From Magnetococcales bacterium (GTDB lineage: Bacteria; Pseudomonadota; Magnetococcia; Magnetococcales; Magnetaquicoccaceae): a stretch of DNA of 64,000 nt. Below the pieces are notes generated by a model. That model worked only from the letters and a program-made list of their open reading frames with translations. It had not been told where the DNA came from and made no database searches. Shown piece by piece: positions 18,292-40,038 of this stretch (positions are counted from its first letter, which is position 1; each line of letters opens with the position of its first letter). Where the stretch lies: contig JADGAZ010000009.1 in NCBI GenBank assembly GCA_015231755.1, positions 1-64,000 on the forward strand. The letters run 5' to 3'. The translations under genes and the position numbers were made by a program.

Positions 18292-18299
18292 GCGTATCC

Positions 18300-21296
18300 A
18301 TGTCCCAGGTCTGTTTCTACCACTCCATCTCCCGCACCGTCACCAGACTGGCAGCCGGAATCGCCTTGTTGCTGGTGGTGCTGCCGGTTTTGCTGTACGG
18401 CAGTTTTGTGGTTTCCAGCATGGATCGCGCCTTGGAGGCCAGTCTTGTTTTTCAGACCAAGACCATCGAACAATACATTCAAAAACAGCCGGACAACTGG
18501 GAAAACAACGCAAGCAGAATACAAGCCATGTATGAGTCGTATGTCGAACCCAGTCAGTATTTTCGTCTGAACGACCGGGATGGGCAGATGGTGTTTTCCG
18601 GAGGTCCGGAATGGCGCTGGTATTTCCATGGTCACAGCAAATCGGTGCATGCCTTCGGCCATCCGGTGGGCGTTCTTGTGGTCGGGGTGTCGTTGTGGGA
18701 CGAGTTGGTGATCGGTGGGGTGGTATTGCTGGTCGGTTGTTTGATTGCCTGGGTCATTTTTGGTCCGGGGCGACGCATTCCCCTGGAGGCCCTGCGTTGC
18801 GCCGAAGAGGCGCTGGCGGCGTATCATGGGCATCTGGAGGAGATGGTGCGGGAGCGCACCGCGGAACTGGAAGTCGCCCTCGACCATGCACGCTCCTCCA
18901 ATCAGGCCAGGCTGGAATCCGATCAGGCCAATCTGGCCAAGAGCCGGTTTCTCGCCAATATGAGCCATGAGATCCGCACCCCCATGAACGGGGTGATGGG
19001 CATGATCGATCTGGCCTTGAACACGGACCTTTCGCATCGCACCCGGGATTTTCTGGTTCAGGCCAGAAGATCCGCCCGCAACCTGTTGCGGGTGATCAAT
19101 GATATTCTTGATTTCTCCAAGATCGAAGAAGGCAAAATGACCTTGGAATCCCTGGAATTTCATTTGTACGAATTGCTGGAAGAGGCCATCGATGCATGCA
19201 AGCAGGGCGCCGTCAACAAGGATATCGAATTGATCGTGGTGGCGCCATCCCATGCCATCGGTCTGTTGTTGGGTGATCCATTGCGTCTGCAACAGGTGTT
19301 GATCAACCTGATCAGCAACGCCATCAAATTCACCTCCCACGGAGAGATCACCATTCGCGCCGAACCCATCGGGTTGACGGCGGATGCGGCGCGGATCCAT
19401 TTTTCGGTTCAGGATTCCGGCATCGGCATCGCCCCGGAACAGCAGGTCAGACTGTTTCGCTCCTTTACCCAGGCGGATGACAGCATTACGCGCAAATTTG
19501 GCGGCAGCGGGTTGGGGTTGACCATTTGCAAACGTCTGGTGGAAATGATGGACGGTGAAATCTGGCTGGAAAGTGCCGTCGGTCAAGGTAGCACTTTTCA
19601 TTTCACCGTGCTTTTGGGGCACCGATCGGAGCCTTCCGCCTTGGTTTTGCCCCAGGATCTGAAAAATTTGCGGGCTTTGGTGGTGGACGACAATGCCACG
19701 GTACGCATGGTCTATACGGAAACCCTGCGCTCTTTCGGCCTCGTGGCCGAGGCGGTGGACGGTGGCGAGGCGGCGTTGCTGGCGTTACGTGCCGCGTTGG
19801 CCGGTGGGCGTTCCTATCACCTGATTTTCATGGATTGGAGCATGCCCGGCATGGATGGGATCGAGGCCATCCGGATCATCCGTGGTGATCCGCAGTTGAC
19901 CTGGACCGTGCAGGATTTGTCCGGGCATGAGCCGATTGTGCAAACGGATGACAACCCCATTAGCTTGCCAAAAATTGTTCTGACCACGGCCTTTGGTCAG
20001 GAAGCCGCCGAACAGGGAGCGGGAGAACTCCAGTTGGACGCCTGTTTGATCAAACCGGTGACCCCTTCCCATCTGTTTGACACCATTCTGGAACTGTTCG
20101 ACCGGAAAATGGTCCGTTCCCATGCCACCGCTTTGCCGATCATGGACCGGCAGCACATTATTCAGGCCCTGGGGGGTGCCCGGGTCTTGCTGGTCGAAGA
20201 CAACAGCATCAATCAGCAGGTGGCCCGGGAGATTCTCAGAAGTATCGGAATCGTGGTGGATATCGCCGAGAACGGCCTGGAAGCCGTGAGTCTGGTGATG
20301 ACCAGAACATACGATCTGGTGTTGATGGATGTCCAGATGCCCGAAATGGATGGCTATGCCGCGACACGCGCCATCCGCGCCGACTCCCGTTGGCAGGCTT
20401 TGCCCATTCTCGCCATGACCGCCCATGCGATGCAGGAAGATTATGATAAGAGTATGGAAGCGGGCATGAACGATCACATCACCAAGCCCATCGATCAGCA
20501 GCAGTTGATCCTGGCCTTGATGCAATGGATCAAACGCAAGCATAAACCGCTGCAACACGCATCGATCCCGGTACTCAACAGGCCGGAATTGACCGCGGCA
20601 CCCATGTCCCGGGATCCGGAGCCTGTGGTTTCCGGGATGCGGACCGTCTGTCTGCCGTCATCCCTGCCTGGAATCGGGGTCAATCAGGCCCTGGAGCGGC
20701 TGAATGGGAATCACAAGCTGTTGCGTTCCGTGCTGCTGGAATTTGAACGGGAGTTCTCCGACAGCGATCAGCGTATTGCGCAAGCGTTGCGGGAGGATGG
20801 TCCGGAGGAGATCCAGTCCGCCATGCGTCTGGCCCATACGGTCAAGGGCATCGCGGGCAATCTTTCCGCGGATGCGCTGTTTATGGCGGCCCAGGCGTTG
20901 GAACAGGGCCTTCGCGCCCATGAGCGTCACAACTGGGTGGGATTGACGCAGACGTTTCAGGTTGAGTTGCGTCAGGTGTTGTCTTCCATCGTCTTGCTGA
21001 AAGAGGCCTATTCCCAGGGATTGTCTCCGGAAGGGACGTCTTGTCTCGATCTCTGCCGGGATCCTGCGGTTGTTGTCCCTTTGTTGAAACAATTGGTGGT
21101 CCAGATCGATCATTACAATCTTTTGTCGCTGGATCTTTGTGCGCAATTGCAGACCCTGTTATCGGGAGGGGAATTGCAAGAGGTGGTGGATCAGATGGCG
21201 CAGAGTCTGGATCGATTTGACTTCGAGGAGGCATCGTCCTATCTTGGTCAGATCATTCAGGCACTTCATATCGATCTGGATTTTACCAATGGATAG
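18300..21296 (+). CDS. Membrane hybrid histidine kinase with two REC and one Hpt domain
   Basis: A 998-aa kinase. ATG 18300 is used. Two membrane helices (about 17-40 and 140-160) enclose a small periplasmic domain. A coiled coil follows, then HisKA with H223 in [12 protein letters not shown], HATPase_c ([17 protein letters not shown]), REC1 (LVVDDN...[10 protein letters not shown]), REC2 ([11 protein letters not shown]...[10 protein letters not shown]), and an Hpt domain with H846 in [10 protein letters not shown]. All phosphorelay residues are intact. It follows the PstS-like gene by 8 bp and overlaps the next kinase by 8 bp, giving a three-gene signalling operon. No DNA-binding output is encoded nearby. 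Confidence 0.93.
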
Positions 21297-24057
21297 TAAT
21301 CGCAAGCAGACCGTTTTGATTGTTGATGATGTGCCTGCCAACATCAAGATCGTCATGGGAATTCTGGAAGACTATTATGAATTGATGGCCGCCAACAACG
21401 GTGCGACGGCGTTGAAGATCGCCAGAAGCAGACGCACCGACCTGATCTTGTTGGATGTGGTCATGCCGGGAATGAACGGCTACGAGGTTTGCCAGGAACT
21501 CAAGGAGGATGCGAAAACCCGAGAGATTCCGATCATCTTTTTGACCGCCAAAGACAGTGCGGGAGAGGAGAGCTTTGGATTTTCCCTGGGGGCGATCGAC
21601 TATATCACCAAACCCTTCAAGCCTTCGGTTGTGCTGGCCCGGGTTCGCGCTCATCTGGAATTTGAAAAAAACCGGATGGAGTTGCTGGAACGGGATGCCA
21701 ATCTTCAGGCCATTCTCGACTACGCCTCCGACGGGATCGTGTCCGTGGATTTGCAGGGCCGCATCGTGGCCAGTAACGAGTCGGCCAAGAAGTTGCTGGG
21801 CTATTCCCATGCCCAACTGGATGGCATGCCCATCGAGTCGGTGATCGTCGATCCGGAGATGCAGACCTTTTGGCAGGAGGCGATTGCCCGTTCCTTTCAC
21901 ACGGGCAACGATGCGCGCACCATGCAGCGGCGTATTTCCTGTGTGGGCCACTGTGCGGATGGTCGGATCATCGATCTGGAATTGGCGATGACCATCGGTC
22001 AATGGAAAGGAGAGGTGCAACTGACCATCTTCTTCCGTGATGTGACCTCGGAAAAAGCCCTGCTTCACTCGCTCAAGGATACGTTGCAGGCTGCGGAATC
22101 CGCCAATCGGGCCAAAAGCAGTTTTCTGGCCAATGTGAGTCATGAGATTCGCAGTCCCATGAATGCCATCATTGGCATGACCGATCTGATGATCCATTCA
22201 TCGGTTTCACGGGAAGAGAGCGATAATTATCATCAGATCATTCTGAATGCCTCCCTTTCTTTGTTGCAACTGGTCAATGACTTGTTGGATCTTTCCAAGA
22301 TCGAGGCGGGACAGTATACCATCGAGCACATTCCTTTTGATTTGTGCGGACAGGTGGAGAGTGCCTGCGAGACTTTGGCGTTCAAGGCCCACCAGAAGGG
22401 GTTGGAGTTGATTGGCCATGTGCCGCTGGAGTTGCCGGAAACCTTGATGGGAGATCCCTTGCGGGTGCATCAGGTGCTGACCAACCTGATCAACAATGCC
22501 ATCAAGTTTACCGATCAAGGGTCGGTGGTGGTTGAGGTGGAACAGATCCCGGTCACCGAGGCTTCCGACCCGAGCGGGGTGAGTCTGCATTTTTCCGTGA
22601 TCGATACCGGCATCGGCATTCCCGCAGACAAGTTCGGTATGGTGTTTGAGAAATTCACGCAGGCCGACGAGTCCACCACCAGAAAATATGGGGGTACGGG
22701 TTTGGGGTTGTCCCTGTGCAAGCATTTGGTCTTGTTGATGGGCGGGGAGATCTGGGTGGAAAGCGTGGTGGAACAGGGCAGTGCTTTTCATTTCACGCTT
22801 CCTTTTCAGACGGCTTTGGAACAGCGCACGCATCGGCAGGCCTGTCTGGAGCAGCGGGGAAGATCATCCGGATCGGAGCCGCTTACCATTTCCGGGGTGC
22901 GGGTGTTGCTGGGGATCGGACATCCCATACTCGGTCGGGTGGTTCAGGAGATCCTGAAGGATTTTGGGGCCACGGTGACGGTGATTCCTGATCTGGCCGG
23001 GGTGCAGAGCCGGTTGAAGGAACTGCCGGGGCAGCCGTCGCCTTTTGACATCATTGTGTTGGATGAACCGTTGCTGTGGCAGGATGTGGCGCAGCCGGAG
23101 TGGCTGGAAGAGCGGCTTGGGCATTATGGCCGGATTCTGGTGTTGTTGCCCACGACCTTGAGTTCCAATAAACTGGAACGGATTCCGTGGCTGAAACATC
23201 CCCTGACCCTCAAAAAGCCGTTGCGCTGTTATGCGCTGAGAAAAAGCATCCTCCAGGTGTTGGGGCACCTCCCCATGGAGCAGACGACAGGAGAGATTCC
23301 GCAAGGTCAGCGTTCCTCTGGTTTCATCGCGTTGCAGATTTTGCTGGTCGAGGATTTGGTGCCCAATCAGGTGTTGGCCACCGTCATTTTGCAGCAGGCG
23401 GGTCACCTGGTGACGATCGCCAATCATGGTCAGGAGGCTCTGGATCTGCTGATGGCCCGGCAAACCGCCTTCGATCTGGTACTCATGGACTTGCAGATGC
23501 CGATCCTGAACGGTTTTGATACCACGGAACGGATTCGTCACGCGACTTCAGATCAAATCATCAATCCCGACATTCCCATCATCGCCATCACCGCCAATGC
23601 GCTCCAGACCGAGGAGCAAAAGTGCAAGAATCTGAATATGAACGGGTTTATCCGCAAGCCCTATCGTGCCCATGAACTGCTGAAGGCCATTGAACCGTTT
23701 TTGAAATTCCGATCCGGTCCGCTGGTCCACAAGGAGATCGTACTGCAACCGGTGGAGGTGGATTCCTCGACTTTGGCAGAATATCGGGCTGAATTTTTGA
23801 AACGGGGTCCGGGTTTGATGTCCGAGCTGCGTCGGGCGGTGCAGAATGGTCATGAGCGGCAGACCGTGAAATCCCTGTTGGATCTGCGTACCGCCGCCGA
23901 GATGGTCGGTTCGTCCCGTCTGGCCACCCAGGCCCTGCGACTCAAAGGGAGTGCGGAACTGGGTGACTGGGATGAGGTGTACGCCAAACTCGAAATCCTG
24001 GAAATCTTTTTTCAGCAGACCGAACAATTGGTGCGGGCAGCGTTGTCACCGCCGTGA
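21289..24057 (+). CDS. Soluble hybrid histidine kinase: REC-PAS-HisKA-HATPase-REC-REC
   Basis: A 922-aa cytoplasmic kinase starting at ATG 21289 inside the end of the upstream kinase gene. The order is: N-terminal REC ([22 protein letters not shown]); PAS (residues about 145-260); HisKA with H285 in [12 protein letters not shown]; HATPase_c ([17 protein letters not shown]); a degenerate REC-like domain ([11 protein letters not shown]) lacking the acidic pair; an intact REC ([21 protein letters not shown]); and a C-terminal Hpt-like domain in which AHxLKG is replaced by LLDLRT. The N-terminal REC could accept phosphate from the Hpt domain of the upstream kinase. It converges with the DUF3050 gene, with 19 bp between the stops. 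Confidence 0.92.
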
Positions 24058-24076
24058 TGGTGGTTCAATCCGGGCG

Positions 24077-24874
24077 TCACACCGGCGGAACACGCCGCCG
24101 CAACAAGGCCTGATGCACTCCGTCCCAGAAATGGATCCGGGCCGTCATGGCGCGACGGGCGGCCTCTTCGGCGGCGGCAATGTGCGTCGGATCGTTGGCG
24201 CACAGGAGGTGCAGCATTTTCAGGGAGAGGGGACCATGATGGTCTTCGTCCAGGTGGATATGGCGCTCCAGATAATAATGGAAGACCGGAGCCTGTGATG
24301 AATCGATGGCCATTTGGCGCAACAAGGCTCTGAACATGGGAGGAATGATGTGCTCCCGACCCAGGGCAAAGGCGGCGGCCACCACATGGGGCTGATCCGA
24401 GGCGAGGAAGGAGAAGGTCTCCTCCATGAAATGCCGGGATGCGGCGGGAATGGTCTCTTGGTGCTGGTGCAGGGCGTTCCGGAACCCTTGAGCCGCTGCG
24501 GTTTGCGCAAAGTCCAGCGCGCCTTTCGGCGAGGCGCCGATTTCCGCCATGGCTTGAGCATACAGCTCAAAATGGCTGGCATAGGTGGGTTCTCCGGATG
24601 GAGTCGGCAGACCAAGATCCGATTCCTCTTCCAATACGATGTCGTTGATGAAGCGTCGAATCGTTGGATGGCCCACCGGTGCCCAGGGCAGAGTGGTGGG
24701 AGCGAGACGGTTTTGCAGATATTTCAGCAGTGTCATGAAATCCCACACGGAAAAGACATGATGGGACATGAACAGCCGCAAGTCGTCCAGGGAGTGGACC
24801 GCGCCATAGACCGGGTGCGCGTCCAGTTGTGCGCGCAAGGGGTGCAAACTTTCCAGGGAAACGGTCAGGGACAT
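24077..24874 (-). CDS. DUF3050-family protein (heme-oxygenase-like fold)
   Basis: A 265-aa protein. The start at 24874 has AGGAG 5 nt upstream; a TTG start at 24913 would add 13 residues. The opening PLRAQLDAHPVYGAVHSLDD and the segments SHHVFSVWDFMTLLKYLQ and HIHLDEDHHGPLS are typical of DUF3050 proteins. Those are predicted to fold like heme oxygenases and diiron oxidases. Many conserved His/Glu (H50, H51, EEES, HLDEDHH) could bind iron. No biochemical function is established for the family, and the flanking kinases give no clue. Confidence 0.8.
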   Translation of the reverse strand: MSLTVSLESLHPLRAQLDAHPVYGAVHSLDDLRLFMSHHVFSVWDFMTLLKYLQNRLAPTTLPWAPVGHPTIRRFINDIVLEEESDLGLPTPSGEPTYASHFELYAQAMAEIGASPKGALDFAQTAAAQGFRNALHQHQETIPAASRHFMEETFSFLASDQPHVVAAAFALGREHIIPPMFRALLRQMAIDSSQAPVFHYYLERHIHLDEDHHGPLSLKMLHLLCANDPTHIAAAEEAARRAMTARIHFWDGVHQALLRRRVPPV

Positions 24875-25197
24875 GGCAGCTCCTGTCTCGGGATGGATCA
24901 TCCCCCGATTCAAATCAAGAGGTTGCGGAATGGGGGGCGGTGATGCGCCATCCGAAAAAATAACGGACGCACATTAACCTCCCTGTGGCCATTTGTCAAA
25001 GTTTCAAGGCGGCACGATCAAGTCCGTTGGATCGGGTATCGGGAGTGTTTTTTTGAAGAGGGCAGGCGGTATGAAAATTCGGCAGTTTTTTTGGTATCAG
25101 GATGGCGGTCTGAGGCGATTGGTCCCTGGATGGCCATAAAAGGGCGCCGACAAGAGGTGTCAGGGGGCGTGTGATACTCGGAGGCAAGATTTGTATA

Positions 25198-25255
25198 AAG
25201 ATGTGCGTGGAACGCGGCCCGGAAAGGCTTTCCGATGGCGGCCCACGCACATCTT
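25198..25255. repeat. Long perfect hairpin with nested stem
   Basis: AAGATGTGCGTGG (25198-25210) pairs with CCACGCACATCTT (25243-25255), 13 bp without mismatch. Inside it CGGAAAG-G-CTTTCCG (25220-25234) forms a second hairpin. It lies 35 bp beyond the stop of the small secreted protein gene on the minus strand but lacks a clear T-run, so it may be a terminator, an mRNA-stabilising 3' structure, a REP-like element or a small RNA. The rest of the gap 24875-25289 shows nothing recognisable. Confidence 0.5.
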
Positions 25256-25289
25256 GAGAGGCTAGGAGGCTTTCAGGCCGGGATGGACA

Positions 25290-25604
25290 TCAATCACCCC
25301 AGTTGGAATACTTGCTGCAAATCTTGTCCAGTCTTTTGCCGGCATCGGTTTCGGAGAATTTGGCCAGATGACCTTTGAAATTGTCCGGGGTTTCGTTCCA
25401 CATGCAGGTACAAAAGGCTTCGGCTTTCGATTGGCCGGCAATGGGGCTGAGTTCTCCACCGCCTTCCCATCTGGTCATGGAATATTCTTTGCACTGTCTG
25501 AACTGGGGATCGTCACCGGGAACGGTGTTGTATTCGTCGGCGGCTTGCAGCGATCCGCTCAACAGCAGGGCTGCTCCAAACAGAGCCATTTTAAGCATTT
25601 TCAT
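25290..25604 (-). CDS. Small secreted Cys-containing protein, unknown
   Basis: A 104-aa protein with an N-terminal signal peptide (MKMLKMALFGAALLLSGSLQ then AADE), leaving a mature domain of about 82 residues. The mature part has four Cys (FRQCKEY, AFCTCMW, KICSKYS), which could form two disulfides or bind metal, and a polar helical C-terminus. AGGATAT precedes the start on the minus strand. I do not recognise the family. It is a single-gene unit with a stable hairpin just after its stop. Confidence 0.7.
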   Translation of the reverse strand: MKMLKMALFGAALLLSGSLQAADEYNTVPGDDPQFRQCKEYSMTRWEGGGELSPIAGQSKAEAFCTCMWNETPDNFKGHLAKFSETDAGKRLDKICSKYSNWGD

Positions 25605-25996
25605 GATCGTATATCCTTGTTTGATTGGTAACCGGTTGTTTGGTTGAAGGGGAAGAGTGGATTTTTTTCGGATTTTCAGAGAAAAAAACTATGCAACAAA
25701 AAAAAGTGCGTATTGATGATGGGGTGTTGTCAAAAGAATCACGGGATCAAGCTGAATTGATCCTGAAATGTAACCGCTTTGATTGGCCTTGTCAAGAGGT
25801 GAGCTGATTTGTCATGGTGTTTATCCAGGGCACGTGTTCGTATTGGGGGTGGTGTGACGAGCGTTGACCGGCTGTCCTGCAAAACATGAAGATGAATTGC
25901 GTGAGAGGGGAAGGATCGGGACGAGTGACCGGGGGTGTGATGAAGAGGCGCCTCGGAAGGTTGTGTTGGAAAGAGAAATGAATCAAGGAGATTGAT
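25605..25996. other. Non-coding region, nothing recognised
   Basis: This 392-bp stretch between divergent genes is more AT-rich than its surroundings. It contains only short unlikely ORFs and must hold the promoters of the small secreted protein and of arsC. No repeat, RNA or operator was recognised. Confidence 0.4.
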
Positions 25997-26359
25997 ATGC
26001 AAAACGAGAATGTGGTCATCTGGCACAATCCGCACTGTTCCAAGTCGCGTCAGGCTCTGAAACTGTTGGAAGACCATGGCGTCTCTCCCCGGGTTGTGCG
26101 TTATTTGGATGCGCCACCGGACGCTCAGGAATTGGGACGGGTATTGACCGCGTTGGGTTTGGAGCCGCGTCAATTGATGCGCACCAACGAGGTGATTTAC
26201 AAGGACCTGGGTCTGGCGGAAGCCACGCTGGACCGGTCGCAACTGATTGCCGCCATGGTGGCCAATCCGCGTTTGATCGAACGTCCGGTGGTGCTGGTGG
26301 GAAATCGCGCTGTGGTGGGCAGGCCGCCGGAGAAGGTGGTGGATCTGTTGGAATCATGA
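25997..26359 (+). CDS. arsC: Arsenate reductase (glutaredoxin type) family protein
   Basis: A 120-aa thioredoxin-fold protein with the catalytic HNPHCSKSRQAL motif near residues 10-21; the Cys is the arsenate-attacking residue. The typical ArsC middle (RTNEVIYKDLGLAE) and the C-terminal signature (LIERPVVLVGNRAVVGRPPE) with its Arg residues follow. This matches glutaredoxin-dependent ArsC rather than Spx. No arsR, arsB or acr3 is adjacent, so a housekeeping or stand-alone resistance role is likely. A GGAG precedes the start. Confidence 0.9.
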   Translation: MQNENVVIWHNPHCSKSRQALKLLEDHGVSPRVVRYLDAPPDAQELGRVLTALGLEPRQLMRTNEVIYKDLGLAEATLDRSQLIAAMVANPRLIERPVVLVGNRAVVGRPPEKVVDLLES

Positions 26360-26390
26360 GGGGAAGCGTCACGTTTGAGCAGGAGTGTGC

Positions 26391-26843
26391 ATGGATATCT
26401 ATGTGGATGCGGACGCCTGCCCGGTGAAGGGTGAGGTGATGCGGGTGGCCGAACGCCATGGGTTGATGGTCCACATGGTCAGCAACCAATGGATGCGCCT
26501 GCCGTCGAGTCCAATGTTGCGGGTTGAGGTGGTTTCGGGGGGCTTGGACAAGGCGGATGACTGGATTGCCGAACGGATTGGCCAGGGGGATGTGGCCATC
26601 ACGGCAGATATTCCCCTGGCTGCCCGCTGTCTGGCCAAAGGGGCGCGGGTGCTTGGACCCACGGGCAAACCTTTTGATGACGACGGTATCGGCATGGCTT
26701 TGGCCATGCGTGATCTCAACGCTCAATTGCGGGATGCGGGAGAAATCCGGGGAGGCGGGCCACCCTTCGGCCCCAAGGACCGGTCACGGTTTTTGCAGGC
26801 TTTGGAAGAGGCGATTCAGGCCATCAAGCGCATGACGCGGTGA
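26391..26843 (+). CDS. YaiI/YqxD family protein (DUF188)
   Basis: A 150-aa member of the conserved YaiI/YqxD family, which has a PIN-like/NYN-related fold. ATG 26391 has AGGAG 5 nt upstream. The opening IYVDADACPVKGEV, the middle GGLDKADDWIAERI with DVAITADIPLAARCL, and the end GGPPFGPKDRSRFLQALE are diagnostic. Several Asp could form a metal site, but no activity has been established for the family. It follows arsC by 31 bp and ends at a terminator. Confidence 0.92.
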   Translation: MDIYVDADACPVKGEVMRVAERHGLMVHMVSNQWMRLPSSPMLRVEVVSGGLDKADDWIAERIGQGDVAITADIPLAARCLAKGARVLGPTGKPFDDDGIGMALAMRDLNAQLRDAGEIRGGGPPFGPKDRSRFLQALEEAIQAIKRMTR

Positions 26844-26875
26844 AAAAGGGGGGGTATCTTCGGCCTGGATGCATA

Positions 26876-26908
26876 AAAAAAGCCCACGCATGATATCGTG
26901 GGCTTTTT
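26876..26908. terminator. Bidirectional rho-independent terminator
   Basis: AGCCCACG (26881-26888) pairs with CGTGGGCT (26897-26904), flanked by an A-run before and a T-run after. It can serve the YaiI gene on the + strand and the tRNA-Glu transcript on the minus strand. Confidence 0.85.
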
Positions 26909-26957
26909 CATCTTCCTGGTACGAAATTTTTGATGATTTTGATGATATTTTAAAAAA

Positions 26958-27033
26958 TGGCGTCCCGTACGGGAATCGAACCCGTGTTGCCGGCGTGAAA
27001 GGCCGATGTCCTAGGCCACTAGACGAACAGGAC
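26958..27033 (-). tRNA. tRNA-Glu (TTC anticodon)
   Basis: The minus strand reads as a complete 76-nt cloverleaf with encoded CCA. The acceptor stem GTCCTGT pairs with ACGGGAC, allowing one G-U. The anticodon loop is CTTTCAC with anticodon TTC and the T-arm contains GGTTCGATTCC. It resembles bacterial tRNA-Glu closely. Confidence 0.95.
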
Positions 27034-27390
27034 TTGGTGTTACTTGGTGTTGCCAATACTTTGTGTTGCAAACTCTTGGGGCTAGTCGAGTGGGAGACGG
27101 TGTTTTGTCGATTTCCCTGGGGCCGTGTGTTGCCTTGTTCCTCGATTGCTTCAATCCGGATCTTATAACCGAATTGCCGTATCCATTGCAACCCTTTTTT
27201 GTGACCGGATTGCATTTTTTTCAGCAGGGCTTTTCTTGACCGGCATCGGGGAGAAAAAGGAACGATTCTTTCGGGGCGGAGCGAATTACACTTGACTTCG
27301 TGTCCCACTGGTTTAAAATCCATCCGCTATGGTGTCTTCCCCTCTTGATGAAAACGTCCTTGGCGCTTTGGCTCCGGGACTGGTCAGCAT
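27034..27390. other. Spacer between divergent tRNA-Glu and tRNA-His
   Basis: A non-coding stretch of 357 bp. Its only recognisable element is the sigma-70-like promoter for tRNA-His at 27292-27319. No convincing promoter for tRNA-Glu was found. Confidence 0.5.
27292..27319 (+). promoter_or_regulatory. Sigma-70-type promoter for tRNA-His
   Basis: TTGACT (27292-27297) and TAAAAT (27314-27319) are separated by 16 bp, close to the sigma-70 consensus. Transcription would begin near 27326, about 65 nt upstream of the tRNA. Confidence 0.55.
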
Positions 27391-27467
27391 GGCGGATGTA
27401 GCTCAGTTGGTAGAGCCCCGGATTGTGATTCCGGTTGTCGTGGGTTCGAGTCCCATCGTTCGCCCCA
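27391..27467 (+). tRNA. tRNA-His (GTG anticodon)
   Basis: A 77-nt cloverleaf including the extra G(-1), which pairs with C73, and an encoded CCA. The anticodon stem-loop CCGGATTGTGATTCCGG gives GTG. The D-arm (GCTCAGTTGGTAGAGC) and T-arm (GTGGGTTCGAGTCCCAT) are standard. Confidence 0.95.
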
Positions 27468-27666
27468 AATTCCTTGAAGCACGCCAAGCACCCCAGGTTC
27501 AAATTGGTCGGTTCGTCAATTCCCTTTTGTGTGTCCCCATTGCTGTTTTTGAGGCTCACCTGCGAAAGTGGGGGATTGGCCGGATACGGCAAAGAACCAC
27601 ACTCGTTGTTGCTCGGATCGGGTTGACGTCACCACGCAAAATGATCCTCCGGTCCATTGGTGACAT

Positions 27667-27714
27667 ACCGATTGGTGAAATGCCCGATTGGTGAAATGCC
27701 CGATTGGTGAAATG
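27667..27714 (+). repeat. Three tandem 16-bp copies of the tRNA-Leu 5' end
   Basis: ACCGATTGGTGAAATG (27667-27682) is followed by two exact copies of CCCGATTGGTGAAATG (27683-27698 and 27699-27714). The last copy is the acceptor and D-arm start of the tRNA-Leu gene. The second copy, with its preceding G at 27682, repeats the whole 5' acceptor strand GCCCGAT. Confidence 0.9.
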
Positions 27715-27781
27715 GTAGACACGCGGGATTTAGGTTCCCGTGCCTCGCGGCGTGAGGGTTCGAGTCCCTTGTCGGGCACCA
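27698..27781 (+). tRNA. tRNA-Leu (TAG anticodon)
   Basis: An 84-nt class II tRNA with encoded CCA. The acceptor GCCCGAT pairs with GTCGGGC and the anticodon arm CGGGATTTAGGTTCCCG gives TAG. A variable arm (TGCCTCGCGGCGTGA) and the T-arm GGGTTCGAGTCCC follow. Its 5' end is preceded by two further tandem copies of its first bases. Confidence 0.93.
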
Positions 27782-28039
27782 TGGCCACCATGGCCATCGT
27801 CGATCACCAGCCCCATTGGTGTCTGAGGTCCGGATTGCATCCAGGTTGTCATCAACGGGATTGGAAGGGGGAACCCCGATGGATTACAAGCTGGTTTTTC
27901 GATCCCGCGTCGATCCGGAAGCCGATCACCTCCCAATCAGGCCCATGATTTCCGGACAGGAGCCATTCCCGGCTTCCAAGGATGTTCGGGTTTCCGACCG
28001 CCTCCGTCAGACCGCCCTCACCGATTGGATGGGAGCGTG

Positions 28040-31000
28040 ATGAAAGAGAAGCTCGTTTCGGCGCTGTTGCCACTTCTCTGGACCGTCCTGCTTGCCGCAT
28101 CCTTGTTCTGGAATCTGTGGAATGCCGGGCGTGACTCGGAGTCCATTGTCATGGCGTTTGCCCGCGCCTTCAGTGACGCACTCATCAGCACCCATCTGTG
28201 GAATGCCAATCTGGGTGGGGTATACGTCAAGGTCACCGACGACATCCAATCCAATCCATACCTGAATCCCGTCATGCGGGATCTGACCACCCGTGACGGG
28301 GTGCGGCTGACCCTGATTCATCCCTCCCAGATGTTGCGACAGATCGCCGAAGTTTCCCAGTATGATCAGAAGGTGCGTTATCATCTCATCGCCCTGCGTC
28401 CCATCCGGTCCGCCAACACTCCGGATGGCTGGGAAACGGGGGTGTTGCGCGCCTTCCGGAATCCGGATGATGAACGTCTCGAACTGGTGGCGTCCACCCT
28501 GCATTTTCGTTACATGCGGCCACTGCTGGCGCAAGAAGCCTGCCTGAAATGTCATGCGGGTCAGGTGGCCCGGGTGGGTGAGATTCTGGGTGGGGTCTCC
28601 TTGACCATTCCGGGCGGGGTGCATCTGAACGCGTTGCGGTCGTCACGGCTGGCGTGGGGGGTATCTCATGGGGTGGTCTGGCTGCTCGGACTGGGGGGGA
28701 TGTACGCCTTTCGCAGGTTTCGTGATCGACAGAGGCAATTGCTCGATTACAGTCGCGAGGCCTTGTTGCAGGAAAAAGCCTCCGCGGAAAACGCTACACG
28801 GGAAAAAAGTGAACTCCTCGGACAACTGCTGCAAAAATCATCCAAGCTGTCCAAACAGAACAAAGAGCTGGAACTGCTCGGACAGATCCGTTCCGTCACC
28901 AATCGCCTGTTGATCGATGCCCTGGAGCCTCTTTCCCTGATGGAACATCTGGAAGAGGCCATGTTTCTGATCACCGCGACCCCCTGGTTCGGCATTCAGC
29001 CACGGGGATCGATTTTCTTGTGGGACGAGGCTTCCGGAGAACTGGTGCTGGCGGTGCATCATCAGCTTTCCGAGCCGTTGTTGACCTTATGCGCCCGGGT
29101 GCCTCTTGGTCATTGTCTGTGCGGTCGGGCGGCTCAGACCCGTCAGGTGGTGTTCACCAGTCATCTGGGGGATCGTCATGAAATCCGCTTCGAGGGGATG
29201 GAGGAGCATGGTCATTACTGTTTGCCCATTCTGACCGGGGATCGTCTGCTGGGGGTGCTGAATCTCTATGTGGATCACAACCATACCCCGACCACCGAGG
29301 AGGCCAATTTTTTGCGTTCCGTGACCAGCACCCTGGCCGGAATCATCGTGCGGGCCGAACAGGATGAACAACTGGCCGAAGCCAAGCGTCGCGCCGAGGA
29401 GGGCACGCGTGCCAAGAGCGCCTTTCTGGCCAACATGAGCCATGAAATCCGTACCCCCATCAACGCCATTCTCGGTCTTGGCCATCTGCTGGAACAGACC
29501 ATTCTCTCCGGACAGCAGTTGGACTATCTGCGCAAGATCCGTTTCTCTTCCCAGTCCTTGTTGAACATCATCAACGATATTCTGGACTTTTCCAAAATCG
29601 AGGCGGGCAAGCTTTCCTTGGAGTCGGTGCCGTTTCATCTGGAGGAGATTTTGGGCCATGTCATCGGACTGGTGGAACACAAAGCCCGGGAAAAAGGATT
29701 GGTCATTCTGCTCGACATTCCGCAGGATCTGCCTTGCACCTTGCGGGGCGATCCGTTGCGACTTGGGCAGGTGTTGACCAACCTGATCGGCAATGCGGTC
29801 AAGTTCACCGAGTCCGGGGAGATTGCGGTCAGTGTCCAGCCTTATTATTATTCTGAGAGTTTTGTGGTGCACTGTTTTTCGGTGCAGGATACCGGCATCG
29901 GCCTGACCCCGGAACAGCAGGCCGGACTGTTTCAGGCGTTCAGTCAGGCGGATCTTTCCACCACGCGTCGTTTTGGCGGCACCGGATTGGGTTTGGCCAT
30001 CAGTCGGCAGTTGGTCCGCATGATGGGCGGGCGGATCTGGGTGGAGAGTGAACCGGGTCGGGGCAGTCTGTTTGCTTTCACGGCGGCCTTTTGGCGTCAG
30101 GATCAGCAGACGGTCTTGCAGGATGCCGATGCCCGCCATCATTCGTTGACGCGGGATCCGGCCAGTGATGAGCGGGCTTTGGCGGCCTTGCGGGGTGCGT
30201 CTGTGTTGGTGGTCGAGGACAACGACATCAACCAGCAGGTGGCCAAGGAGATTCTGCAACAATGGGGACTGGTGGTGACGGTGGTGGGGGATGGTCGGGC
30301 CGCCATTCAGGCGGTGGAACAGGCCCATCCCCCCTTTGCCGCGGTGTTCATGGATGTGCAGATGCCGGTGATGGATGGTTATCACGCCACCCGCGCCATT
30401 CGCGGACTGGCGGTGGGCGGGGATCTGCCGGTGATCGCCATGACGGCCAATGCCATGTCCGGGGATCGGGAGCGGAGTCTGGCCGAAGGGATGAACGATC
30501 ATCTGGTCAAACCCATCGATGTGGATCTTCTCAAGGCGAGTGTGTTGCATTGGGTCAAGCCGGTCCCTGGTGGTGGAGTTGAGGGGGAGGTGAAAGCGGC
30601 TGTCGTCGTGTCGGCTGAGGCGCTCCCGGCGTGTGTCCTGCCCGAGGTGTTGCCGGGGATCGATCTGGAGGACGGTTTGCGGCGGGTGGCGGGCAATCGG
30701 GGATTGTTCGCCCGCTTGATCCTGGAATTCTGTCGCAAGTACCGGCGTTCCGGCGAGACCTTGCGCAAGGCTTTGGATGCTGGCGAGGTGGGTGAGGCCC
30801 GTCGTTTGCTGCATGCCCTGGGGGGGATGGCGGGCAATCTTTCGGCCCGTGATCTCCATGGCACCATCAACGCTTTGAGAAACGCCATCAAACAGGAACA
30901 CAGGGGAGAGATTCCGGTTTTGCTGGATCAGTTTGATCAGCACTTGCGGATCGTGGTGGAATCGGCTTTCCTTTTGGAGGGGTTGAACCGGTCGGAACCG

Positions 31001-31279
31001 TCGACGACCCCCGATGTCGGGACCGAGAATTTCGCCTGGGATGTCTCCGTGGTGGCGCCATTGCTGGAGCAGACCATGTATCTTTTGGGGTCCAACAATT
31101 TGGCTGCGAAACGGATGATGCCTGCCATTCGTGAGGCGTTGCCTGGGCCGCGTTTCCAAGAGGAGATCCGCGCCATGGAAGAAAACGTGAATCAACTCGA
31201 TTTTGCCGCCGCGCGTCCTCCTTTGGAGGCCATTGCCCGCGCGCTTGCTTTGATCCTGACCACGGGTGAGACTCCATGA
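28040..31279 (+). CDS. Heme-binding (CxxCH) hybrid histidine kinase with GAF, REC and Hpt
   Basis: A 1079-aa membrane kinase starting at ATG 28040. Membrane helices at about 8-28 and 205-224 enclose a periplasmic domain of the DUF3365/Tll0287 type with one c-type heme motif, C168-L-K-C171-H172. A coiled coil and a GAF domain (about 285-438) follow. Next come HisKA with H468 in [12 protein letters not shown], HATPase_c ([17 protein letters not shown]), REC ([11 protein letters not shown]...[10 protein letters not shown]), and an Hpt domain ([14 protein letters not shown]). In the Hpt domain the His is one place shifted from the usual AHxLKG, so its use is likely but not certain. Heme-based redox or gas sensing is the probable input. 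It overlaps the next gene by 4 bp (ATGA). Confidence 0.92.
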
Positions 31280-32193
31280 AAAAAAACCGGGAAAAACCGG
31301 TCATCCTGGTAGTGGATGACGAATCGATCAATATCGAGGTGTTGGATGAGATTCTGCGGCGCGATTATGTCGTGTTGTTTTCCACCCATGGCAAGATGGC
31401 CCTGGAGATGGCCGTTGTCCAGGATCCGGATCTGGTTCTGCTGGATATCATGATGCCGGGGATGGATGGTCATGAGGTGTGTCGCCGACTGAAGGCCGAT
31501 AGCCGCACCCGGGCGATTCCGGTGGTGTTCGTGACCGCCATGAGTGGCAAGGAGGATGTGGTCGAGGGATTGCGGCTCGGGGCCTATTATTATTTGACCA
31601 AGCCGGTGGACCCTCCGGCCATTCAGGCGGTGATTGCCGCCGCATTGCACGAATACGCCACCCATTGCGCCTTGCAGGAAGAGGTCAACAAGACCGCCAG
31701 CATTTTTGGGCTGTTGGAGAGCGGTCGATTCCGGTTTCGCACCATCGAGGAGGCCCGTTCACTGGCGGTGCTGCTGGCCAAGGCCTGTCCCGAGCCGGAA
31801 AAACGGGTGCTGGGTTTGACGGAGTTGATGGTCAACGCGGTGGAGCATGGCAATCTGTCCATCAGTTATCAAGAAAAGAGCGCCTTGCACAAGTCGGGCA
31901 GTTGGGCCGATGAGATCGAACGGCGTCTGAACCGGCCGGAATATGCCAAGAGAAGCGCGACCGTCGAGTTTGTGCGGGATGGGGGGGAGATCCGGTTTTT
32001 GATTTGTGATCAGGGGGAGGGGTTTGACTGGCGCGCCTTCATGAAGATCGATCCGGACCGGGTTTTCGATTCCCACGGTCGGGGCATCGCCATGGCCAAC
32101 ATGCTCAGTTTCGACGCGGTGCGTTATCTGGGCAAGGGCAACGAGGTGATGGCGGTGTTGAGTATCGTCCAGTCCGGGGAGGCGCGGTGGTGA
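31276..32193 (+). CDS. Response regulator with RsbW-like HATPase output domain
   Basis: A 305-aa protein with an N-terminal REC domain ([12 protein letters not shown]; phospho-Asp in [19 protein letters not shown]; Lys in TKPVDP) and a C-terminal HATPase_c_2 domain. The latter contains [14 protein letters not shown] (N box) and a late [12 protein letters not shown] box. The family resembles anti-sigma kinases of the RsbW/SpoIIAB type, which act by binding or phosphorylating partner proteins rather than DNA. It is translationally coupled to the heme kinase and is its likely direct partner. A matching STAS anti-anti-sigma protein is not in the window. Confidence 0.88.
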
Positions 32194-32278
32194 TGGCCTG
32201 AGAGGGCTGGCGGCAAAGCGCGTTTTTTCCCCCGTCCGGGGCGTGTGGGAGCGTGCGACGGGGGCAGGATCGGGGCGT

Positions 32279-32932
32279 TTATCCGTTGCGGGATCCGGTG
32301 ACGCCGCAAAAGATCAGTCTGGGCATGATGGTGTCGCCAACCCGGTCAATGCGGATGCGGGCCATGGCGGCATAGGGCACGGAGATGCGGGAGAGGTGTT
32401 CCAAAGGCGTGAACAGCACCAGTCCCAGCAGAACCCGGATCACCCCGCCATGGGCCACCACCAGAATCCGTTCCCCGTTGCCTTGGGGATGGGTGAGGGT
32501 ATCGTTCCACAAGGCCCGCAGCCGGATCTGCACATCCCGCAGATGGTCACCTCCCGGCGGAGGGTTGTCGAGGGGATTTTTCCAGAAACGGGTGAGACGG
32601 TCCGCGTCCGTGGCCAGGATTTCGGCGGAGGTTTTGCCTTCCCAGGCTCCGAAGCTCATCTCCCGCAAGGAGGGATTGATTTCCGGCTGGAGGTGGAGCC
32701 GTTCCCCCAGGGCATGGGCGAATTCGGCGCAGCGGCGCAGGGGCGAGGAGTAGATCCGGTCCCAGGGGCCGTGAATGCGGGTGGTGTTCCACATGGCGTC
32801 CCATCCTTCCGGGGCCAGGGGGTCGTCCAGGGAACCTCGATACTTCACCCCGCCTACGGGAGCGCCGTGACGCAGCAGATCGATGACCAGTCCGGTGTCG
32901 CCGGAGCGATTTTTGTAGTCGGGTGGGATCAT
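32279..32932 (-). CDS. cobC: Histidine phosphatase, probable alpha-ribazole phosphatase CobC
   Basis: A 217-aa histidine phosphatase superfamily member with the catalytic LLRHGAP motif near residue 20, Arg in YSSPLRRCAEFA, and the second His in VVAHGGVIRV. Overlap by 4 bp (ATGA) with cobT identifies the likely substrate as alpha-ribazole-5'-phosphate, the product of CobT, in the lower-ligand branch of cobalamin synthesis. On sequence alone a phosphoglycerate mutase-like phosphatase could not be excluded. Confidence 0.85.
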   Translation of the reverse strand: MIPPDYKNRSGDTGLVIDLLRHGAPVGGVKYRGSLDDPLAPEGWDAMWNTTRIHGPWDRIYSSPLRRCAEFAHALGERLHLQPEINPSLREMSFGAWEGKTSAEILATDADRLTRFWKNPLDNPPPGGDHLRDVQIRLRALWNDTLTHPQGNGERILVVAHGGVIRVLLGLVLFTPLEHLSRISVPYAAMARIRIDRVGDTIMPRLIFCGVTGSRNG

Positions 32933-33990
32933 GGCGTGGGTGGTGCGGTCTCGTTGAGCAGAGCGCAGGCGGCGCGCAGCAGTGGCAGTGCGGCCAGGGC
33001 GCCGGTGCCCTCTCCCAGACGCATATCCAGGTTGAGGAGCGGGCGGGTTTCCAGGCTGCGGAAAACGGCGTATTGACCGGGTTCGGCGGCCCGGTGTCCG
33101 AAGAAGAGCCATTGTTTGAGGGGGGGATGCAGAGTCACGGCCACCAGAGCGGCCACCGAGGCGCAGAAACCATCCACGATGGCGGTGATGCCCAGTCGGC
33201 CACAGGTGACGTAGGCCCCGCACAAGGCCACGGTCTCGAATCCTCCCAGACGGCGCAGCACATCCAGAGGCGTGGAAAAGAAGCGTTGATGATGATCCAC
33301 GGCGCTTTGGATCGCCTGGGCCTTGATCACCAGGGTTTCAGCCGGGATACCGGCACCGGGACCGGCCACGGTTTCCGGGGGAATGCCCAACAGGGCGCAG
33401 GCCACGGCTCCCGCCGAGGTGGTTTTGCCTGCGCCGATCTCTCCGCCGATGAAGATCCGGCAGCCGTTGTGCGCGGCGCGTTCCACGGCCTCCCGACCGG
33501 CGGCCAAGGCGGCGGCGAGTTGCGGTTCGCTCATGGCCGGGGTGGTGCGAAAGTCGGTGGTGCCGTTGCCGACCCGTTGGCGGATCAGGCCCGGCAGGGC
33601 GCCCGGATCGTGAAACAGTCCCACATCCACCACTTCGTGGTGAATCCCGAAGGTACGGGCCATCACGGCGCTGGCGCTGGTGCCGTTCAGGCAACTGTGC
33701 AGCAGGGTCGGGGTCACCTCGACCGACATGCCCGACACGCCCGCGTTGGCCACGCCGTGATCGGCGGCGAATACGGTGATCTGGCACGGGTCGGCGGACG
33801 GATCAGGCCGATGCTGCATGGCGGCCAAGCGTTCCGCGATCTCTTCCAGGGCGCCCAACGCCCCTGGCGGGCCGGGAAGTCGGGCAAAATGGTTGCGTGC
33901 CGCCTGCGCCATGGATGCGGAGATTGGTTTGATCGGTTGGTGCAGCCAAGTGGAAGTCACGTTAAAGAAAACTCCAGCGGTCGAAATCAT
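32929..33990 (-). CDS. cobT: Nicotinate-nucleotide:dimethylbenzimidazole phosphoribosyltransferase CobT
   Basis: An enzyme of up to 353 aa that makes alpha-ribazole phosphate from DMB and NaMN. The family motifs are clear: LPGPPGALGALEEIAERLA near the N-terminus, VFAADHGVANAGVSG, the NGTSASAVMARTFGI region, GGEIGAGKTTSAGAV, GAYVTCGRLGITAIVDGF, and the C-terminal catalytic Glu region RLGEGTGALAALPLL. The true start may be the GTG at 33960 or further in, because no good ribosome binding site is seen at 33990. cobC follows with a 4-bp overlap. No cobalamin riboswitch was recognised upstream. Confidence 0.92.
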   Translation of the reverse strand: MISTAGVFFNVTSTWLHQPIKPISASMAQAARNHFARLPGPPGALGALEEIAERLAAMQHRPDPSADPCQITVFAADHGVANAGVSGMSVEVTPTLLHSCLNGTSASAVMARTFGIHHEVVDVGLFHDPGALPGLIRQRVGNGTTDFRTTPAMSEPQLAAALAAGREAVERAAHNGCRIFIGGEIGAGKTTSAGAVACALLGIPPETVAGPGAGIPAETLVIKAQAIQSAVDHHQRFFSTPLDVLRRLGGFETVALCGAYVTCGRLGITAIVDGFCASVAALVAVTLHPPLKQWLFFGHRAAEPGQYAVFRSLETRPLLNLDMRLGEGTGALAALPLLRAACALLNETAPPTP

Positions 33991-34160
33991 CCAGGGTTTG
34001 AATCTTACCCGAATATGGTACCTTCAATCTGGGAAAAAGGCCAGAGGAGGTGGAACGGACGAAATTTTTTCGCGGTGCGTTCGGTCGGTTGCCATGGAAG
34101 GCGGCAACCGGGTAAACTAGGGATTCAGTCATTATCGTAAACCGCGCGAAGGGAGTTGCC

Positions 34161-35930
34161 ATGCGGGAGATTGTCATTGGACTCGTGGCCCGCAGTCTGG
34201 AACGGCTGGCCGGAGAAGGGGTTTTGTCCAGAGAGTTGGCGGCTGCGTTTCTGGATCGGGGAGCGGAATTCAAGGTGGAGCGCCCCCGGGAGAAGTCCCA
34301 TGGGGATTTTTCCACCAACGCTGCGTTGGTTCTGTCCCGCATGGCGGGAATGAAGCCCAGGGAGTTGGCCCAGCGGCTGCTTGCTGCCATGCCCACGGAT
34401 CAGACCGCCGGGGTGCGTTGCGAGATCGCCGGACCGGGTTTCATCAATTTTCATTTCTCCCCGGAGCGGTTGCGTGGACTGATTCCGGAAATCGCCAGCC
34501 GTGGTCCCTCCTATGGCCGTTCCCGCAGCGGGGCCGGACAGCGGGTGTTGGTGGAGTTCGTTTCGGCCAACCCCACGGGGCCGATGCATGTGGGGCATGG
34601 CCGGGGCGCGGTGACCGGGGATGCCATCGCCCGTCTGTTGTCCGCCATCGGCTGCGAAGTGGAGCGGGAGTATTACATCAACGACGCCGGCGCCCAGATC
34701 GACGTGTTGGGCCGGTCGGTGCTGTATCGCTATCGGGAGTGTCTGGGCCGGGAGGTGGTGGCCCCTCCGGATTATTATCCCGGGGAATATGTGATCGAAA
34801 TCGCCCGCGCCCTGATCGATCGGGATGGGGAGCGGTGGCTGGAGCGTTGCGACTATCTGGCCCGTGACCATGCGGCGGATAAAAGCGGCCTGGAAAGACC
34901 CCCCGTGGAGGTGGTGGATTTTGCCATCTCCTGGGTCATGCGGGAGATCCGCGCCGATCTGGAATCCATGCGGATCCACTTCGACCACTGGTTTTCCGAA
35001 CGCACCCTGCACGCGGAAGGGGGCATCGATCGGGCACTGGCCCATCTGTCGGCCCATGACTGGATCCACGAAGGGGTGCTGGAACCCCCCAAGGGACGGG
35101 AGGTGGCCGCGTCTGAGGAGTCGGACAGCCGGGTGCAGTTGCTGTTTCGCTCCTCCCGACTGGGGGATGACTCGGATCGCCCCTTGTTGAAGGCGGATGG
35201 CACCCCCACCTATTTCGCCGCCGACATCGCCTATCATTTCCACAAGGCCCAGCGGGGCTATACCCGATTGGTGGATGTGTGGGGCGCGGATCATGGCGGT
35301 TATGTCAAGCGGGTCCAGGCCGCCTTGGAGGCCATGACCGGCCAGAAGGATCTGCTGGACGTGGTGTTGACCCAGATGGTCAATCTGACCCAGGGAGGCA
35401 AGCAGGTGCGCATGTCCAAGCGGGCCGGAACCTTCGTGACCCTGCGGGAGGTGCTGGACGAAACCGGAGCCGATGCGGTGCGTTTCTGGTTTTTGACCCG
35501 CTCGTCGGGTGCCGGACTGGATTTCGATTTGGATCTGGCCAAGTCCAGGAGCAACGACAATCCGGTTTTTTATGTGCAGTATGCCCACGCTCGGGTCTAC
35601 TCTTTGCATGCGAAGCTCAAGGAGAGAGCGTTGCCGGAGGTGGAGGGGGATTTATCCCGTTTGACCGCCGCCGAAGAGATGGATTTGATTCGTCTGCTCG
35701 GGTTGTTCCCCGAAACCGTGGAAGGCGCGGCCTTGAGTCGCGAGCCGCATCGCGTGACCTATTATCTGTCGGAACTGGCGGCGGCGTTTCATGGCTATTA
35801 TAATAATTATCGCATTCTGGATGAGGATCCGGATTTGCGTGGTGCCCGATTGGCGCTTGTCCGTGCGGCTGGACAGGTGATTGCCAACGGGTTGGATTTG
35901 TTGGGTGTTTCCGCTCCGGAATCAATGTGA
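34161..35930 (+). CDS. argS: Arginyl-tRNA synthetase
   Basis: A 589-aa class I synthetase. The HIGH motif is HVGH within SANPTGPMHVGHGRGAV, the KMSKS equivalent is RMSKRAGTF, and the C-terminal anticodon-binding DALR domain ends with ...RAAGQVIANGLDLLGV. The N-terminal Add-1 domain and the overall length are normal. GGGAG precedes the ATG. It is followed by a SPOR-domain gene whose GTG start overlaps the argS stop (GTGA). Confidence 0.97.
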   Translation: MREIVIGLVARSLERLAGEGVLSRELAAAFLDRGAEFKVERPREKSHGDFSTNAALVLSRMAGMKPRELAQRLLAAMPTDQTAGVRCEIAGPGFINFHFSPERLRGLIPEIASRGPSYGRSRSGAGQRVLVEFVSANPTGPMHVGHGRGAVTGDAIARLLSAIGCEVEREYYINDAGAQIDVLGRSVLYRYRECLGREVVAPPDYYPGEYVIEIARALIDRDGERWLERCDYLARDHAADKSGLERPPVEVVDFAISWVMREIRADLESMRIHFDHWFSERTLHAEGGIDRALAHLSAHDWIHEGVLEPPKGREVAASEESDSRVQLLFRSSRLGDDSDRPLLKADGTPTYFAADIAYHFHKAQRGYTRLVDVWGADHGGYVKRVQAALEAMTGQKDLLDVVLTQMVNLTQGGKQVRMSKRAGTFVTLREVLDETGADAVRFWFLTRSSGAGLDFDLDLAKSRSNDNPVFYVQYAHARVYSLHAKLKERALPEVEGDLSRLTAAEEMDLIRLLGLFPETVEGAALSREPHRVTYYLSELAAAFHGYYNNYRILDEDPDLRGARLALVRAAGQVIANGLDLLGVSAPESM

Positions 35931-37015
35931 ATCCCCGTTATCCCACTTCCAGGCAGTTCCGGCGTCACCGGAGCCGAAAATTGGGTCGTCCCTTGCTGCT
36001 GTTGGGCTTGATGGCGGGCGTGGCTTTGTATTGGATTTTTTCCTCTTCCCCGGCGCCCCGGAAACCGGAGGTGGCTGCGGTTTCGGAGAGCAGAAACCTG
36101 GAAGAGGAGATCGCCGCCCATCTCAAGACCACGCAACCGGCTGCGGTGACCCCGCCTCCCGCGGCAGAACACGGACGCCACGACAACAAGGAAAAGGACA
36201 AGGAAAAAGAAAAAGCGGGAGCCTCAGGGGATGGTCGCAGAATTGCCATGATCGATCCCCCCTCCCTGACCGATCCCACGGGCCGGCTGGAGGCCCCGGA
36301 AACCCCGGTGCCCTCCGAAGGATCGGCTGCGGCCAACCATGCCCCGAAGCCGTTCACGCCAATACCGGTCCAGGCCAGGAAACCCTTCGAGAGTCCCAAG
36401 TCGTCGGACGCCGCCAAATCCACCGAATCGTCCAAGAGCGCAGACGCGGCCAAATCCGTCTCTCCGGGGGGCAAATCCGGCGACAAGAACAAAGCGGAAC
36501 CGGAATCCACCGCAGAGAAAAATCCGTCGGGAGAGCATGAAGCGAAAAAAAGCAGCGAACCCGAAGATCCCCCCATGCCTTCCGCGCCCAAGGAGTTGGC
36601 TCCCAAGGCGCGTCCGCCGGATGTGCCGATCACTTTTTATGAAGAGTTGCCCAAACGCAAGGTGATCGTGCCCCTGGAAGAACCGGTGGAAAACGCCAGC
36701 AGCGCCAAATCCACCACCAACGTTGCCGCCGATGCGCCGCCCCCCCGTTCTCCCGCCACGCCGGAGAAAAATGGCGCCCGCACGGGTCCTTATGTGGTGC
36801 AATTGGCGGTGTTCAACGACGCCCAGCGCGCCGCCACCATGGCCGGAGACCTCCAGAAAAAAGGCGTGCCCGCCCGGGTGGTCAAAAGCAAGGATGGCAC
36901 TTTGTATCGGATCCGTTTGGGTCCGTTCCCGACCCATGCCGAGGCCACCCGTTCCGTGACCCAATGGAAACTGGGTGGACAATCCACGTTGATTTTTCAA
37001 GATAACGAGGGATAA
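35927..37015 (+). CDS. SPOR-domain membrane-anchored protein
   Basis: A 362-aa protein that starts with GTG overlapping the argS stop. A short basic cytoplasmic tail is followed by one membrane helix (residues about 20-40). Then comes a long low-complexity periplasmic linker rich in Pro, Ala, Lys, Glu and Ser (about 45-270). The C-terminal SPOR domain (PYVVQLAVFNDAQRAATMAG ... YRIRLGPFPTHAEAT) completes it. SPOR domains bind denuded peptidoglycan at the division site, so a cell-division or cell-envelope role like DedD/FtsN is expected. The argS-SPOR arrangement is common in proteobacteria. Confidence 0.88.
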   Translation: MNPRYPTSRQFRRHRSRKLGRPLLLLGLMAGVALYWIFSSSPAPRKPEVAAVSESRNLEEEIAAHLKTTQPAAVTPPPAAEHGRHDNKEKDKEKEKAGASGDGRRIAMIDPPSLTDPTGRLEAPETPVPSEGSAAANHAPKPFTPIPVQARKPFESPKSSDAAKSTESSKSADAAKSVSPGGKSGDKNKAEPESTAEKNPSGEHEAKKSSEPEDPPMPSAPKELAPKARPPDVPITFYEELPKRKVIVPLEEPVENASSAKSTTNVAADAPPPRSPATPEKNGARTGPYVVQLAVFNDAQRAATMAGDLQKKGVPARVVKSKDGTLYRIRLGPFPTHAEATRSVTQWKLGGQSTLIFQDNEG

Positions 37016-37033
37016 GTCATCCTGTTGCCTCCC

Positions 37034-37342: not shown

Positions 37343-37583
37343 TCCTTGGTTTCCGAGTAAAGAATTGACAATTGTTCATTTATCTCCTGTATGCGCAGTA
37401 TAGGTGAGTGTCTTTTGAAAATCCATCGTAAATTTTGCTGGTTTGCAATTTTTTCCGATTATCGAGATATCGGGATGGGCGTGCTTGTGAACCAACTGGT
37501 TTCAAATAGGCCGGGAATCGGCGTTCCGGCGGTTTCACCAGGGCTGTTGAGGCATCGGGCAGACAAGTGGCAAGTGGCTGTAC

Positions 37584-40010: not shown

Positions 40011-40038
40011 GGGGTGCCGAAGGTCGGCGCAAGAAGGG

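Follow-up and report, generated by a model that had tools for sequence, protein, structure and literature searches.

Tandem copies of the tRNA-Leu(UAG) 5' end upstream of its own gene in a Magnetococcales genome

How does a tRNA gene come to be preceded by a series of copies of its own 5' end, and do these copies influence the maturation of the tRNA? These questions are raised by a locus in the window studied here, a stretch of 64,000 nucleotides that corresponds to positions 1-64000 of contig C9 in a Magnetococcales genome (G000; 3.84 Mb in 44 contigs, assembly 97.84% complete).

Structure and transcription of the locus

The gene for tRNA-Leu(TAG), with the CCA end encoded, is located at positions 27698-27781 on the forward strand (ARAGORN; Rfam RF00005). 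It forms a complete cloverleaf according to ARAGORN and scores 48.5 bits against RF00005, for which the cut-off is 29. On the same strand lies the gene for tRNA-His(GTG) at 27392-27467 (ARAGORN; RF00005), while a gene for tRNA-Glu is located on the reverse strand at 26958-27033 (ARAGORN). In front of tRNA-Leu, TRF identified an array of period 16 that spans 59 bp (27656-27714) and comprises 3.8 copies, of which 93% of positions match. Its units are head-to-tail copies of the first 16 nucleotides of tRNA-Leu(UAG), placed upstream of the gene. When read in the register of the tRNA, the copy that adjoins the gene, GCCCGATTGGTGAAAT at 27682-27697 (forward strand), is identical to nucleotides 1-16 and contains the complete 5' acceptor strand, and the unit at 27698, which is the tRNA itself and the presumed master copy, is also GCCCGATTGGTGAAAT. 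The next copy outwards, TACCGATTGGTGAAAT at 27666-27681 (forward strand), differs from nucleotides 1-16 by two changes. A decayed distal copy on the same strand, CGGTCCATTGGTGACA at 27650-27665, was recognised from the TRF output and the tRNA register and is offset by one indel. The decay of the units in G000 rises with the distance from the tRNA, and the leader copies hold tRNA sequence alone, ending where the GG of the D-loop starts in the tRNA.

The preliminary description had counted three 16-bp units, two of them identical and one with a single change. This holds in the register that begins at 27667, in which the third unit lies inside the tRNA; the leader proper contains two good copies and the decayed third at 27650, which had been overlooked. 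It had correctly noted that the 5' acceptor strand of tRNA-Leu is present in full in the middle copy when the G before it is included.

The self-match of the array at lag 16 was 31/32, whereas the window, when shuffled 10 times by a Markov model, reached maxima of 21-23/32, and the array is therefore not due to chance. A comparison of all tRNA genes in G000 with their 120-nt leaders gave a best 16-nt match of 16/16 for tRNA-Leu(UAG), while none of the remaining 45 of the 46 genes exceeded 10/16; tRNA-Leu(UAG) is the sole gene so arranged. In G000, the 15-mer core of the unit is found with no mismatches only at the three array places, and all of the 15 other matches have two mismatches.

The only promoter-like site within 27200-28100 is a sigma-70-like sequence, TTGACT-16-TAAAAT, at 27292-27319 on the forward strand in front of tRNA-His (one found in the scan, 0.3 expected). 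No terminator-like site was found. Since the sole promoter-like site precedes tRNA-His, the two tRNAs are presumably driven together from 27292-27319, with the array in their spacer.

Divergence between the sister genome and congeners

The genome G006, labelled Magnetococcales, is the sister of G000, with 96% amino acid identity in ArgS as compared to 84% for the next relative. The flanks of the locus are colinear in the two genomes, with 89-94% nucleotide identity over 28026-40570. Upstream of the tRNA-Leu gene in G006 there are two perfect leader copies, in comparison with two plus the decayed one in G000, while G005, G007 and G009 have an orthologous, near-identical tRNA-Leu behind tRNA-His in single copy with no leader copies; each species is represented by one genome in this comparison. 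For G003, G004, G008 and G010, which fall outside the comparison, the locus with tRNA-His and tRNA-Leu(UAG) was not recovered and the matches were to other tRNAs. The tRNA-Leu repeat pattern was matched by 2 of 48 Magnetococcales genomes and by 2 of 398 genomes in a sample of the phylum, in both cases G000 and G006.

Nucleotide 13 is G in all three copies in G006, which read GGTGGAAT, and A in the three good copies in G000, which read GGTGAAAT. The G in G006 is most simply derived, because the outgroups have A. Its presence in every G006 copy implies either that the array was renewed from the tRNA copy or that arrays originated separately in both sisters. The identity between G000 and G006 was 119/184 in the spacer, 28/31 in the array and 83/84 in the tRNA, and the divergence of the array was significantly lower than that of the spacer (Fisher p 0.003), with two of the three array differences being the same A-to-G change that separates the tRNA genes. 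Judging from these substitutions, the array appears to be young, and to have been renewed from the tRNA end or to have arisen twice. Purifying selection could be an alternative cause of its conservation.

Arrays in other bacteria and viruses

We searched the contigs of 84,980 species genomes with the tRNA-Leu 5'-repeat pattern, a scan in which tRNA-Leu was the only tRNA kind covered and from which the genome of the window was possibly left out by design. Four stretches were obtained, one of which (L086) is G006. Two others have two leader copies plus the gene with a 17-bp unit, namely L085 from Desulfobacterales GB_4872_bin42 at tRNA-Leu(CAA) and L087 from a Nitrosomonadales MAG at tRNA-Leu(GAG). 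The fourth, L088, was rejected since it contains a partial single copy only. Like the array in G000, those in L085 and L087 have three copies, counting the tRNA, that abut directly. They differ in that the unit comprises nucleotides 1-17, and thus 17 bp rather than 16 bp, in that other isoacceptors and other phyla or classes are involved, and in that each leader copy has a change in the acceptor strand. This rare arrangement has therefore originated independently in two or more unrelated bacteria.

Among the relatives of L085 and L087, we read 30 loci from 54 matching genomes for G049 and 30 from 56 for G048. Of 62 distinct tRNAs in these loci, arrays were seen on the two query genes only. A putative insertion with inverted repeats, MITE-like in appearance, is located at about 5870-6025 in L087, between a secG-like gene (named from its sequence) and the arrayed tRNA-Leu(GAG); the tRNA is closer behind the secG-like gene in the relatives read. 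Two seemingly remote arrays, L198 (G049:C85) and L199 (G111:C167), were discarded as they contained no tRNA gene and no comparable repeat array. The former, from the Nitrosomonadales genome G049, has at 727-854 an array of the heptamer CGGCTTA with 18.3 copies and 99% match.

The scan patterns require an exact repeat and periods of about 14-19, or of about 17-23 in the case of the Ser-type pattern, because of which absence in these scans is weak evidence. With this scope, the class-I tRNA pattern (exact repeat, periods of about 14-19) was found in 0 of the 398 genomes of the phylum sample, and neither the class-I nor the Ser-type pattern (exact repeats) was found in the viral contigs. The tRNA-Leu pattern identified nine stretches in viral contigs, all of them single partial D-arm copies lacking a matching acceptor strand, which were not accepted as arrays. 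Five related viral contigs (L122, L124, L126, L127 and L129) contain, immediately in front of the gene, one 12/17 copy of the 5' end of tRNA-Leu(TAA), which may be what is left of a single duplication after decay. No bacterial precedent for tandem arrays of tRNA 5' ends was found in the open-licence full-text literature.

An artefact of assembly might be suspected, given that G000 is in 44 contigs and that related assemblies are often interrupted at the orthologous locus. However, the 59-bp array fits within ordinary reads, its distal copies are distinguishable, and the same architecture is seen in G006, L085 and L087, which are separate assemblies. Because arrays are present in separate assemblies, we give this explanation next to no credence.

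Origin of the array

The array is probably a young local duplication of the first 16 nucleotides of tRNA-Leu(UAG) that was expanded by slippage and homogenised, with effects that are likely to be near neutral. Replication slippage, which we take as the enzymatic route, was one of the possibilities raised in the preliminary description and is the best supported of them, in that the copy number differs among congeners, the decay is graded and the copies appear to be homogenised. We suggest that the first 16 nucleotides were duplicated locally by slipped-strand or unequal recombination. Only the copy that continues into the remainder of the tRNA is under selection, and it would therefore act as the master. 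Adjacent to the tRNA, new units would be added or old ones overwritten, while the distal units would decay, and the distal decay observed in G000 is consistent with such addition or overwriting beside the gene. The leader copies would be carried in the transcript of tRNA-His and tRNA-Leu and be lost when RNase P cuts off the 5' leader; in G000, this enzyme is predicted to meet mainly the native acceptor stem.

Simple slippage is opposed by the finding of no two-copy intermediate and by the other two full arrays, both of which also have three copies. It looks as if the three-copy state reflects more than one round of expansion or some selection. We also considered self-complementarity of the unit as a driver of slippage in a comparison of 131 distinct tRNA 5' ends, 47 of them from tRNA-Leu; this was rejected because the value for the unit, -11.0 kcal/mol, was exceeded by tRNA-Leu 5' ends that are free of arrays.

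The common start of the units (nucleotide 1 or 2) and the common stop (before G18) across lineages could hint at a boundary defined by the tRNA, but shared boundaries are partly expected because the search pattern limits the periods to 14-19. Such a boundary would also result from RNA-templated insertion, by which a 5' tRNA fragment (nucleotide 1 to about 17) would be copied repeatedly into DNA at its own gene, since in every lineage seen the units begin with the mature tRNA 5' end and finish within the D-loop. Given the part of the boundary that is imposed by the search pattern, and that plain slippage equally produces a head-to-tail tandem at the parent gene, this mechanism strikes us as extremely improbable. 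If the array is indeed a product of slippage, it offers a clear example from nature of a repeat that has an essential RNA gene as its end unit, so that the sequence itself reveals in which direction the repeat is renewed.

Evidence bearing on integration and on the source of the tRNA

tRNA genes are common targets for integration. A past integration event had been put forward in the preliminary description, and the array might represent the scar of site-specific integration or excision by a mobile element at the 5' end of the tRNA. Fragments of the 5' end of the tDNA are listed for 159 of 3919 islands in Islander (PMC4383910), and these resemble the array in G000 in being partial tRNA copies in direct orientation and on the correct side. 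In contrast to these fragments, the array consists of several abutting copies of exactly nucleotides 1-16, which is not expected from a scar, and it has no island, distal fragment or integrase among the neighbours tested. All other matches to the unit in G000 (97.84% complete) have at least two mismatches, and no distal tRNA fragment that bounds an island was found. None of the ten neighbouring gene products tested (18159-33990) has a recombinase domain; nine have sensor-kinase/receiver, ArsC, DUF188, DUF3050, phosphoribosyltransferase (DBI_PRT) or histidine-phosphatase domains and one had no match. The flanks, as noted, are colinear with G006.

The tRNA itself provides the other argument for a mobile source. 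The tRNA-Leu(UAG) shared by G000, G005, G006, G007 and G009 is identical to the gene in G001 and G002 at 64 of 81 positions, and in G002 the differing tRNA-Leu(UAG) is also located behind tRNA-His. The gene of the G000 clade looks closest to viral tRNA-Leu(TAG) genes (74/81 for L228 and 70/81 for L230), a closeness that is favoured because the viral contigs were chosen by an exact 17-nt match to the 5' end. It is thinkable from these identities that the host tRNA-Leu(UAG) was replaced by a virus-type tRNA, and complementation of a disrupted host tRNA by phage-encoded tRNAs has been described (PMC10865867). Yet an array upstream of the tRNA was seen in 0 of the 18 viral contigs with the same 5' end. 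Taken with the lack of a distal unit, of a recombinase domain in the ten neighbours and of any break in colinearity with G006, this leaves the integration scar very unlikely.

Predicted folding and processing of the precursors

We estimated with which 5' strand the 3' acceptor strand pairs, using nearest-neighbour energies for unmodified RNA. In G000, the native 5' strand had a pairing probability of about 0.92, as compared to about 0.005 for the nearest leader copy, which is perfect. The corresponding values were about 0.84 and 0.02 in G006, and 0.62 and 0.37 in L085, while the model failed for L087, where the native probability was 0 at any copy number. The suggestion that a decoy strand misleads RNase P is thus unsupported for G000 by the thermodynamic model, and is more plausible for the array in L085 from Desulfobacterales. 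An effect of even or odd copy numbers, with leader copies that pair with each other and thereby spare the tRNA, was rejected as not robust. The native acceptor probability was 0.97 with two copies and 0.54 with one in G000, as compared to 0.73 and 0.98 in G006, so that the trends are opposite, and the folding of L087 fails.

These predictions bear on the alternative that the array is functional, with repeated 5' strands that shape the folding of the pre-tRNA or the access of RNase P, or that release short 5' fragments, and so tune the supply of tRNA-Leu(UAG). In agreement with this, the leader copies are better conserved than the spacer between G000 and G006, similar three-copy arrays at tRNA-Leu genes are present in two unrelated bacteria, and pairing in the L085 model is divided between the native strand and a decoy. 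Furthermore, pairing of the leader with the 3' RCCA has been reported to inhibit bacterial RNase P (2022; PMC9433436). On the other hand, three congeners with a near-identical tRNA manage without the array, arrays are lacking in those relatives of L085 and L087 that were read, the predicted effect of copy number is opposite in sign in G000 and G006, and the decoys scarcely pair in G000. We consider a functional leader unlikely, although it is kept alive by the convergent arrays of unrelated lineages and by their state of three copies. The more specific proposal of a convergent leader device, in which tRNA-Leu genes of unrelated bacteria would reiterate their first 16-17 nucleotides and the matched copies, as spare 5' strands of the acceptor and D-stem, would alter the manner or the speed of pre-tRNA folding and RNase P cutting, or directly yield short 5' fragments, appears quite improbable. 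If functional, the arrays would represent a compact cis-acting control of tRNA maturation that has evolved more than once. For genes of this type, one matching strand is insufficient for assuming where the 5' end of the tRNA lies.

Comparison with other tandem repeats

The array has features in common with ordinary VNTRs and short tandem repeats, namely identical head-to-tail units, graded decay and copy numbers that vary between related genomes. It differs from ordinary VNTRs in that the end unit belongs to an essential structured RNA gene, by which one copy would be fixed as the master.

The tyrT repeats carry the 3' end of the tRNA and are located downstream of the gene. These repeats (rtT RNA) in E. 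coli and Salmonella are similar to the array in G000 in that tandem units contain part of a tRNA gene and adjoin that gene, and their copy number changes between Salmonella strains, as exemplified by the 175-bp VNTR of rtT RNA in Salmonella Paratyphi A, for which one strain is reported to have one copy fewer (PMC2658671). The units in G000 are instead derived from the 5' end and lie upstream; with a size of 16-17 bp, they duplicate the acceptor strand together with the D-stem's first strand.

A second strong short tandem array in the window is located at 56506-56575, with period 15, 4.7 copies, 92% matches and the unit CTGATGCCATCCCCG; position 56515 is the only other place in the window at which the self-match reaches 29/32. 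At the 3' end of the tRNA-Leu gene, a 9-bp tandem duplication, CACCATGGC at 27777-27796 on the forward strand, overlaps the CCA end, as indicated by TRF and by comparison with G006, which has a single CACCATGAC at this site without the 9-bp duplication. The tRNA-Leu gene in G000 thus has small tandem duplications at both ends.
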